From NCBI RefSeq assembly GCF_001469215.1, contig NZ_LOFH01000001.1, forward strand, positions 310,001-374,000: a DNA stretch of 64,000 nucleotides, in the 5' to 3' direction. The DNA comes from Pseudoalteromonas sp. H105. GTDB taxonomy: Bacteria > Pseudomonadota > Gammaproteobacteria > Enterobacterales > Alteromonadaceae. This document shows, piece after piece, positions 20,185-27,421 of this stretch (positions are counted from its first letter, which is position 1; each line of letters starts with the position of its first letter). The notes under the pieces were generated by a model. It was not told the origin of the DNA, did no database searches, and was given only the letters and a program-made list of their open reading frames with translations. Made by a program: the position numbers and the translations under genes.

Positions 20185-21192
20185 ATGATTGAAGCTGATC
20201 GTCTTATAGACGCAAGCGAACAAAGTAATGAAGACGTTGTTGATCGCGCAATAAGACCAAAATTACTCGCTGATTACACGGGCCAGCCCCATGTTAAACA
20301 GCAAATGGAAATATTTATAGAAGCGGCACGAAGTCGTGCAGAAGCACTTGACCATTTATTGATCTTTGGCCCGCCTGGCTTAGGAAAAACAACCTTGGCT
20401 AACATTGTTGCAAACGAGCTTAAAGTCAATATTAAAACCACATCTGGCCCTGTGTTAGAAAAAGCGGGGGATTTAGCTGCGCTTTTGACTAATTTAGAAG
20501 AAGGCGATGTACTTTTTATAGACGAAATACATCGGCTTAGCCCGCAGGTTGAAGAAATTCTTTATCCTGCAATGGAAGATTACCAACTTGATCTTATGAT
20601 CGGTGAAGGCCCTGCGGCTCGCTCTATAAAGCTCGATTTACCTGCTTTTACATTGATTGGCGCAACAACCCGTGCTGGGTCACTAACATCACCACTAAGA
20701 GATAGATTTGGTATTGTTCAGCGTTTGGAGTTCTATTCAGTGGCTGATTTATCAACTATTGTCGGACGTTCTGCACATTACCTAGATTTAGAAATGTGTG
20801 AGGATGGTGCAATTGAAATTGCAAAACGTTCAAGAGGAACTCCCCGTATTGCAAATAGGCTCTTGCGCCGAGTGCGTGACTATACGCAAGTTAAATCAGA
20901 CGGGACTGTAAATGCTGATGTGGCAGAACTTGCGCTGAATATGATTGATGTAGATAAAAGTGGCTTTGATTATATGGATCGAAAATATCTGCTCTCTATT
21001 ATTGAAAAATTTATGGGAGGGCCTGTAGGTTTAGATAATTTGGCTGCGGCGATTGGTGAAGAAAAAGAAACAATTGAAGATGTGATTGAACCATTCTTAA
21101 TTCAACAAGGGTTTATCCAGAGAACGCCAAGAGGGCGTATTGTCTCAGAGATTGCTTATGGGCACTTTGGTTTATTACCCAAAAAAGATTAA
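20185..21192 (+). CDS. ruvB: Holliday junction ATP-dependent helicase RuvB
   Basis: AAA+ motor that drives branch migration. Start region [18 protein letters not shown]; Walker [13 protein letters not shown] near residue 63; Walker [11 protein letters not shown] near 112; sensor 1 [10 protein letters not shown]; arginine finger region LRDRFGI; sensor 2 [17 protein letters not shown]; and the winged-helix C-terminus ([13 protein letters not shown]). 335 aa, standard length. Last gene of ruvCAB. Confidence 0.97.
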
Positions 21193-21384: not shown

Positions 21385-21566
21385 AAAAAAAAACCCGCAT
21401 AAGAATGCGGGTAAACAACAAGTTGAAGGAAGTAATCCAGGGTATACGGCTTAAATTAATCATGTTTTATCATGGTGCTTTTAAGCAATGCAATACGAAA
21501 AATCAGAATCATATTGCTAAGAACTGTGCTTAATAACGGTGTGTTATTACTGCGCTAGCTCGGTAT
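21385..21566 (-). ncRNA. candidate small regulatory RNA between ruvB and tolQ
   Basis: A complete transcription unit with no obvious ORF is visible on the minus strand: -35 TTGAAC and -10 TATTAT with a 17-bp spacer (21573-21601), a predicted A start at 21566, about 180 nt of RNA, and a textbook intrinsic terminator (ACCCGCAT-TCTT-ATGCGGGT followed by eight or nine U) ending near 21385. The 3' part contains an unpaired CCUGGAUUACUUCCUUCAAC segment that looks like a seed region rich in anti-Shine-Dalgarno sequence (ACUUCCUU). It does not match any E. coli sRNA I can recall. Hfq dependence is an inference from the terminator shape. Confidence 0.6.
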
Positions 21567-21572
21567 GGGAGA

Positions 21573-21601
21573 ATAATACTCAAAAGTTGTTTTTTGTTCA
21601 A
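21573..21601 (-). promoter_or_regulatory. sigma-70 promoter of the candidate sRNA
   Basis: Minus-strand -35 TTGAAC (21596-21601) and -10 TATTAT (21573-21578), 17-bp spacer, five of six and five of six or better agreement at key positions. It points toward the terminator at 21385-21412. Confidence 0.65.
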
Positions 21602-22087
21602 ACTAGAAAAATTTCTTTTTCAGATTAAAAAAACTAATGTCAATTATATTATCTTAGTCTTTATTTTAAGCTTTAACTTTAATTTTTTTTCATAGGTTAT
21701 TGTAATTAATGTTTTTATTGCCTTATAAATAATATCGCTGTGATTAGTTTAATTTTTGCTTTAGATATACTTGTTTGTAGTTTTGCGTGTTTATGCATTT
21801 TATGTGAATAAAGTCTGCATTTGTGTTGTTTTTTTCGTATAAATAAGCGCGGAAAGTCCAAGGTTAAATTCAACAACGTTTCTGTTGAAATGGTTACTTT
21901 AGAATCAGATGTGTATTAATGAAGCATTACTTTGGGTTTTCACCGTTTTTTGCTGCTAATTCGTAGCAACATCGTTGTCAGTTACCGACACAGTGGATAC
22001 ACTAGCCTGAACTATTGGCTATTTCATTGGTCATACTCGCACATTATAAAATGCGTACTTAACAAGAAATTGAATTGGGAGTTTATT
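21602..22087. other. gene-free region upstream of tolQ
   Basis: About 490 bp of AT-rich sequence without a supported gene. The open frame that leads into tolQ begins at 21932 but its first 52 codons have no TolQ-like sequence. No ybgC thioesterase gene is present here, although ybgC commonly precedes tolQ in gammaproteobacteria. The tolQ promoter must lie here; I could not assign it. Confidence 0.55.
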
Positions 22088-22789
22088 GTGGGATCAGGAA
22101 TTAATTTTGTAGATTTAATCCTCGAAGCAAGTGTATTGGTACAGTTAGTGATGTTATCGCTAATGGGTATGTCAATCATGTCATGGGCAATTATTTTTCA
22201 GCGTAAAAAAGCAATTTCAGATGCATTGATAGAAGCAAAGCGTTTTGAACAGAAATTTTGGTCAGGTATTGATTTAAGTAAACTCTACAATGAAATTTCG
22301 TCTCGTAGCCGAGTAACCGGTGTTGAAGCATTATTTATCGCAGGTTTTAAAGAATTTGCGCGCCACAAGAAAACATCATTTCAAAGTGCAAGTATTGTCA
22401 TGGAAGGCACACACCGTTCAATGCGTGTCGCGCTGTCACGTGAAATAGAAAAACTTGAGTCAAGTTTATCGTTTTTAGCAACGGTTGGTTCAATCAGTCC
22501 ATACATCGGCTTATTTGGTACTGTTTGGGGCATCATGAATGCATTTATTGCCTTGGGTGAAGTAAAACAAGCAACATTGCAAATGGTTGCACCTGGTATT
22601 GCTGAAGCACTTATTGCAACTGCAATGGGACTTTTTGCCGCTATTCCAGCGGTTATTGCTTACAACCGTTTTTCTAATAAAGTTGAAAAGCTTGAATCAA
22701 ATTACATCAACTTTATGGAAGAGTTTGCAAACATTTTACACCGTCAAGCAGCTACACAAATAGAGGCAAAAGCGAATGTATCAGCGTAA
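22088..22789 (+). CDS. tolQ: Tol-Pal system proton-channel subunit TolQ
   Basis: Inner-membrane MotA/ExbB-family protein that forms the proton channel with TolR and energises TolA during division. About 233 aa with three membrane segments (near residues 10-32, 135-160, 168-195); the conserved [14 protein letters not shown] and [25 protein letters not shown] blocks are present. The start is set at GTG 22088 (SD GGGAG, 6-7 nt upstream): from there the protein has the TolQ N-terminus and length (E. coli 230 aa), whereas the open frame extends 52 unrelated codons upstream. Overlaps tolR by 14 bp. Confidence 0.94.
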
Positions 22790-23210
22790 AAAACGTCGCC
22801 CAGTTGCTGAAATAAATGTAGTACCATACATTGATGTAATGTTGGTGTTACTCATTATTTTTATGGCAACCGCACCGTTAATTACACACGGTGTAAAAGT
22901 TGATTTACCAAAAATGGAAGAATCTGATCTTGTTGATACAAAAGACACACCGCCAATCATTGCTTCAATAGATGCGCAGGGTAAGTATTATGTTAGTGTG
23001 GGTACTAATCCTGAAGAGCCTATGGAAGCACTCGATGTTGCTGCTGTTATTAAATTACAACTAATGAAGAACCCAGAAACGCCTGTGATGATTAAAGGCT
23101 CCGGTAAAGTGTCTTATCAAGAAGTGTTGTTATTGATGGACTTTTTAAAAAACGCAGGTGTTCCTTCGGTTGGCTTAATGACGGAATCATTTGAAGGAAG
23201 TAAAGGCTAA
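22776..23210 (+). CDS. tolR: Tol-Pal system subunit TolR
   Basis: ExbD/TolR-family single-pass protein. The N-terminal helix [19 protein letters not shown] carries the proton-path Asp; the rest (about residues 40-144) is the periplasmic domain with VDLPKME and [15 protein letters not shown]. 144 aa, normal. AGAGG lies upstream inside tolQ, and the genes overlap by 14 bp. Confidence 0.95.
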
Positions 23211-27031: not shown

Positions 27032-27107
27032 GGGTCATTAGCTCAGTTGGTAGAGCAGTGGACTTTTAATCCATTGGTCGATGGTTCAAGTCCATCATGA
27101 CCCACCA
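27032..27107 (+). tRNA. tRNA-Lys (UUU), copy 1
   Basis: 76-nt cloverleaf with encoded CCA; acceptor GGGTCAT/ATGACCC, anticodon loop CTTTTAA (anticodon TTT), T loop TTCAAGT. Identical to the two copies that follow. Confidence 0.97.
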
Positions 27108-27197
27108 TCTATTATTTAGTGTATATTTAATAGTGTGGTCTTTTATCGGCGGATTTACGTATTAGTGTTTAGTTACATTAACTTGTAGCAATAGAGC

Positions 27198-27273
27198 GGG
27201 TCATTAGCTCAGTTGGTAGAGCAGTGGACTTTTAATCCATTGGTCGATGGTTCAAGTCCATCATGACCCACCA
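27198..27273 (+). tRNA. tRNA-Lys (UUU), copy 2
   Basis: Identical in sequence to the copy at 27032; 90 bp of spacer separate them. The 15-bp stretch ATCGGCGGATTTACG in that spacer recurs with one change (C for T) in the next spacer. Confidence 0.97.
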
Positions 27274-27345
27274 TTCATTTATTCAAGTAATGAATGGTTC
27301 AATCGGCGGATTCACGCAGCAACTACTTCACAGTAGATCAAGAGC

Positions 27346-27421
27346 GGGTCATTAGCTCAGTTGGTAGAGCAGTGGACTTTTAATCCATTGGTCGATGGTT
27401 CAAGTCCATCATGACCCACCA
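27346..27421 (+). tRNA. tRNA-Lys (UUU), copy 3
   Basis: Identical to the other two copies; 72 bp after copy 2. No further promoter is obvious between the copies, so the three probably form one transcript. Linkage of tRNA-Lys genes to cpoB and nadA is also seen in E. coli. Confidence 0.97.

Follow-up and report, generated by a model that had tools for sequence, protein, structure and literature searches.

In the gap between ruvB and tolQ of Pseudoalteromonas sp. H105 we identified a small RNA (sRNA) gene, which is likely to encode a GcvA-controlled, trans-acting sRNA and a counterpart of GcvB; GcvA binding, the glycine response, Hfq binding, the targets, and descent from GcvB are what we infer from the sequences compared. 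The sRNA is undescribed in the literature searched and represents a novel variation on the GcvA-sRNA arrangement, although earlier detection of the transcript in the supplementary sRNA lists of the Pseudoalteromonas fuliginea and Alteromonas macleodii papers is possible.

The window, i.e., the whole stretch of DNA analyzed, comprises 64,000 nt (NZ_LOFH01000001.1, positions 310,001-374,000), and coordinates below are window positions unless another contig or locus is named. The comparisons covered a genus set of 108 genomes, searched with BLAST, and a family set of 295 genomes representing 52 genera (Alteromonadaceae in the GTDB delimitation). The models used were a full-length sRNA model (model R1, distinct from region R1 of GcvB), a promoter model trained on ruvB-tolQ sRNA promoters alone (model R2), and a model of the 3' part of the sRNA built from family copies (model R3).

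Identification and conservation of the sRNA gene

The original prediction was that of a stand-alone non-coding sRNA gene, with a minus-strand pair of promoter boxes, an A at the start, no credible ORF, and a terminator followed by eight or nine U residues. Each of these elements was found again in the window (Table 1), including the A at the predicted start, a transcript without a convincing ORF, and a run of nine U.

Table 1. Features of the ruvB-tolQ region (window positions)
Feature	Position	Strand	Basis or remark
sRNA gene, predicted transcript of ~180 nt	21385..21566	-	conserved in 108/108 genus genomes; covariation; +1 at 21566 is predicted
Inverted repeat ATTAGTTTTTTTAAT, GcvA-type site, centre at -65	21624..21638	-	inside the 19-mer; kept in 88/89 loci
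19-mer ATTAGTTTTTTTAATCTGA around the repeat	21620-21638	-	matches the E. coli gcvA-gcvB intergenic region at all 19 positions
Conserved box AATTTTTCTAGTTTGA, overlapping the -35	21598..21613	-	alignment A3; corresponds in position to IR2 (-43), the weaker E. coli GcvA repeat (PMC5002191)
-35 TTGAAC	21596..21601	-	consensus scan; 17-nt spacer to the -10
-10 TATTAT	21573..21578	-	consensus scan
Middle hairpin GCAAUAUGA...UUCGUAUUGC	21490..21517	-	covariation
Single-stranded, almost invariant segment CCCUGGAUUACUUCCUUCAACUUGUUGUUU with putative seeds	21413..21442	-	alignment, predicted fold
Intrinsic terminator, stem ACCCGCAU/AUGCGGGU and 9 U	21385..21412	-	stem 21412-21393, 8 bp
ruvB, convergent neighbour	20185..21192	+	ORF; fixed neighbour in family loci
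tolQ, divergent neighbour, GTG start at 22089	22089..22789	+	ORF; tblastn

Single-sequence scans of promoters and terminators gave matches at chance level (five promoter-like sites found versus 6.0 expected in the consensus scan, and one terminator versus 0.8), so that the argument from this one sequence is insufficient by itself, and these counts are what could be said for the alternative that there is no RNA gene, the promoter and terminator having arisen by chance in AT-rich DNA between the genes. That reading, whose probability we consider negligible, is refuted by the comparative data. The sRNA region is present in 108/108 genus genomes, with promoter, seed, and terminator all kept; loss of their conservation in related genomes had been named in advance as the refuting outcome. 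The full-length model matched 159 of the 295 family genomes (34/52 genera), while the 3'-part model matched 279 of them and all 52 genera at E<=0.05, a count made by threshold, in which the weaker matches are uncertified singly and about 150 lie below 1e-8. Among the 27 family loci opened outside the genus, tolQ adjoins the sRNA in every one and ruvB lies on its other side in 26. Moreover, a pattern scan of GTDB contigs returned 47 stretches, from Rheinheimera, Alishewanella, Arsukibacterium, Alkalimonas, and unnamed gammaproteobacterial MAGs. The single extra-family match in the order-wide search (G578) has neither ruvB nor tolQ beside it and was set aside as probably due to chance.

The structure of the RNA is also conserved. 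The predicted fold has an energy of -45.6 kcal/mol versus -29.1 kcal/mol for shuffled sequences (z -4.5), and in the middle hairpin seven of the eight pairs show two-sided changes and 98.0% of cells are paired. For the whole structure (both helices), a covariation score as high was obtained in 0/500 shuffles, and when the structure was slid along the alignment, paired cells fell to 31.8-53.4%. Judged by conservation across the genus and the family, the sRNA gene in the ruvB-tolQ gap is real; family-wide conservation, fixed synteny, and covariation thus strongly support what had been proposed.

It had also been described as antisense to the gap. The minus strand and the location are correct, although the wording is imprecise, as the sRNA overlaps neither gene: its 3' end lies about 190 nt beyond the stop codon of ruvB, on the opposite strand, and the sRNA is directed away from tolQ. 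This lack of overlap also bears on the idea of a cis-acting element, in which the transcript, or convergent transcription, would directly regulate ruvB or tolQ-R-A-B. The place beside tolQ is fixed across the family, and the sRNA is perfectly complementary over 13 nt (UUGAAGGAAGUAA) to the ribosome-binding site of tolA (23191-23203), both of which would suit such an element; however, the complementarity to tolA does not extend beyond the closest relatives, being lost elsewhere in the genus, while the RNA stretch itself is nearly invariant. We therefore regard cis action as very unlikely, and tolA was also dropped as a conserved target. Three tandem tRNA-Lys(TTT) genes (27032-27421) lie downstream of the tol-pal region, and this repeat is plausibly where many draft contigs stop, at a distance of about 5.5 kb from the sRNA.

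In the alignment of 32 diverse copies (alignment A1), the segment UUCCUUCAACUUGUUGUUU before the terminator is almost invariant, and the 5' and middle parts are conserved as well. The unpaired 3' part holds ACUUCCUU, the stretch complementary to Shine-Dalgarno sequences that had been pointed out earlier, and it is indeed nearly invariant within the genus; despite this, it is not the most conserved part family-wide. There, the best-kept parts are GUUCCCUGGA, UUCCUUC, and UUCAAC...UUGUUG (CAAC..UUGUUG), which for this reason are likely to be seeds or protein contacts. The sRNA has its own promoter, a conserved, apparently unpaired seed, and an intrinsic terminator with a U run, features that would be expected of a trans-acting, Hfq-type sRNA.

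GcvA-type promoter of the sRNA gene

In E. coli, the GcvA regulon consists of gcvA, gcvB, and gcvTHP, and at gcvB GcvA activates transcription with glycine as the signal. The promoter of the ruvB-tolQ sRNA is of the same, GcvA type, with putative GcvA binding. The repeat ATTAG-N5-CTAAT is present at >=8/10 positions in 88 of the 89 sRNA loci, and in 79 of those its distance to the downstream -35 TTG is 22-23 nt; the only exception is L071, in whose repeat one base is deleted. In every lineage, the palindrome takes the form CATTAG-N5-CTAATG or GATTAG-N5-CTAATC upstream of the -35, mostly followed by GAAA, and the box AATTTTTCTcgTTTG is also kept upstream across lineages. The E. coli gcvA-gcvB intergenic region contains ATTAGTTTTTTTAATCTGA, 19 nt identical to the window, and the centre of the repeat is at -65 both from the E. 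coli gcvB start and from the start predicted here. At gcvB, GcvA sites have been published for positions -65 and -43, each a 15-bp ATTAG-n5-CTAAT repeat, and the site within the 19-mer corresponds to IR1 (PMC5002191).

The motif ATTAGNNNNNYTAATC alone showed no clear enrichment in the genome to which the window belongs (G000; 11 occurrences versus 7 in the control), and specificity was obtained only with the longer promoter model, as opposed to the short motif. With this model, the sRNA promoter ranked first in every genus genome. Outside the family, its match in G390, a genome of another family, was the gcvB promoter (E 1.1e-5), situated 73 nt before a GcvB scoring above the Rfam cut-off.

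Searches with the NCBIfam GcvA family model found one clear GcvA ortholog, far above the cut-off, in each genus genome checked. In the own genome, gcvA is located on another contig, after a 284-aa ORF of the same direction. The 15-bp repeat of the E. coli regulon recurs at the gcvA of the genus: six of nine genomes have it at 8-9/10 positions, some 31-35 nt ahead of the start codon, and a seventh has a perfect copy further upstream, while at the remaining 2/9 gcvA promoters a clear repeat was not found. At the gcvT promoters of the genus, the ATTAG-N5-CTAAT repeat was looked for and none was seen, which is a difference from E. coli. Two other families of the order do have a perfect repeat upstream of gcvT, at 149 nt (L190) and 362 nt (L180).

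Related LysR-type regulators can share half-sites, and the GcvA model gives 31 matches in the own genome, with lower scores in nearly all cases, so that another LysR-type regulator might read ATTAG-N5-CTAAT instead of GcvA. The same repeat, however, stands in most gcvA ortholog promoters and at gcvB of other families, and the 19-mer is shared exactly with E. coli, which makes a reader other than GcvA improbable.

Relation to GcvB

GcvB (RF00022), which has been termed the master sRNA for the amino-acid metabolism of Gram-negative bacteria, occurs in Enterobacteriaceae, Pasteurellaceae, and Vibrionaceae. It is about 205 nt long, has a conserved region R2 near its 3' end, depends on Hfq, and acts on targets in amino-acid transport and metabolism, nearly all of the known ones through the seed region R1. 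To our knowledge, the GcvB forms described so far all lie beside gcvA and all contain R1. According to the literature, GcvB is generally divergent from and adjacent to gcvA, and the G/U-rich seed region R1 (UGUUGUGUUUG) is common to all GcvBs (PMC9409037).

The sRNA had been said not to resemble any recognised sRNA. This holds as far as Rfam is concerned, because no family reached its gathering score on it, whereas the GcvA-type promoter and the GcvB-like 3' part had been missed. The GcvB covariance model (gathering score 42 bits) gave no match in the window and none above the cut-off in 13 genus genomes; among relatives, its only match to the sRNA (L107) was sub-threshold, with 26 bits, and starts upstream of the predicted transcription start. 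Region R1, present in 4/4 GcvBs compared, had no match with <=1 mismatch in the sRNA loci examined, apart from two partial U-rich strings (L112 and L113). The sRNA shares with GcvB the GcvA-type repeat at -65, a similar length (~180 versus ~205 nt), a terminator with a U tail, and a weakly similar 3' part; it differs in its location at ruvB-tolQ rather than beside gcvA, in the missing G/U-rich R1, in scoring below the Rfam cut-off, and in its additional anti-Shine-Dalgarno UUCCUUC and CAACUUGUUG elements. Because it has neither region R1 nor a place next to gcvA, the sRNA was not filed as GcvB.

The 3' likeness was found with the 3'-part model, which, run unfiltered on 196 kb of E. coli, placed the GcvB 3' end first with 23.0 bits versus 16.7 for the next match, aligning GUUCCCUGGA of the sRNA with ACUUCCUGUA of GcvB R2. 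The GcvB 3' end was the best match also in the gcvB loci L173 (25.1 bits) and L175 (17.2 bits), besides E. coli (L236), and it was poorly placed in L174 (9.4 bits). This suggests a possible shared descent of the two 3' domains. Since the same switch sequence occupies the same promoter position as at gcvB, the sRNA is probably the relocated and reworked version of GcvB in this family. The complete course of events, i.e., that a GcvB descendant left gcvA, lost R1, and had its targets rebuilt on R2-like and anti-Shine-Dalgarno 3' seeds, with the GcvA switch retained unchanged at -65, is proposed tentatively, and we give it somewhat less than an even chance.

Possible too, though less likely than not, is that the sRNA and its GcvA control are as proposed and there was no descent from GcvB: an unrelated RNA would have come under a GcvA promoter, and the 3' likeness would reflect convergence of Hfq-type sRNA tails. 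The absence of R1, a 5' half that cannot be aligned, the different neighbourhood, and the lack of any match of the full-length model in gcvB loci are consistent with this, and terminator-bearing sRNAs generally give weak cross-matches. Convergence of this kind would nevertheless have to account for the lead of 6 bits over 196 kb of E. coli, for the same best place in two other gcvB loci, and for the collinear promoter architecture.

Two further resemblances to known sRNAs were considered and dropped. The string UUACUUCCUU is, we assume, shared with E. coli FnrS, and ACUUGUUGU presumably with GlmZ; the Rfam search gave no FnrS match and no support for GlmZ. From the same bacterial family, the Csr sRNAs Pf1-Pf3 of P. 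fuliginea and Aln1a-c of A. macleodii are described as carrying many GGA motifs and sequestering CsrA (PMC11882849, PMC5864184). No CsrB/RsmX-type GGA array was found in the sRNA sequence of the window.

Putative mode of action and targets

For the GcvA-controlled sRNA proposed here, the glycine-loaded LysR-type activator GcvA would most likely bind ATTAG-N5-CTAAT at -65 together with the weaker site over the -35, and, once bound, would switch the sRNA gene on, as it does at E. coli gcvB. Hfq probably joins at the U-rich 3' end; the unpaired, C/U-rich 3' half (GUUCCCUGGA, UUCCUUC, and CAACUUGUUG) may then pair with the ribosome-binding sites of target mRNAs, and this pairing would block their translation. 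A genome-wide search for seed patterns beside ATG revealed no conserved target: no ortholog was repeated, and the reversed-pattern control was exceeded in the own genome only, therefore no target is claimed. If the proposal is true, the same switch at another address and with other seeds would mean an sRNA regulon rewired under a fixed input, and it would provide a testable glycine-responsive RNA regulator for abundant marine heterotrophs, which feed on peptides and amino acids.

Other GcvA-type promoters

The promoter model also found a second promoter of the same design conserved within the genus (G000:C3:382761-382805, minus strand, L274; orthologs L267-L273), which likewise distinguishes the genus from the E. 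coli GcvA regulon. This promoter precedes a short membrane ORF of about 80 aa, without a Pfam match, near an rpsT-like ORF. In G391, which belongs to a different family within the order, a GcvA-type promoter (promoter model E 8.8e-7) was found beside a purL-like ORF (L256, ~1500-1870); the unit comprises a short transcript with a 26-codon ORF (MTKLFENVVNLYKRAFVEMYNAKEMK) and a terminator, and may be another GcvA-dependent small RNA.
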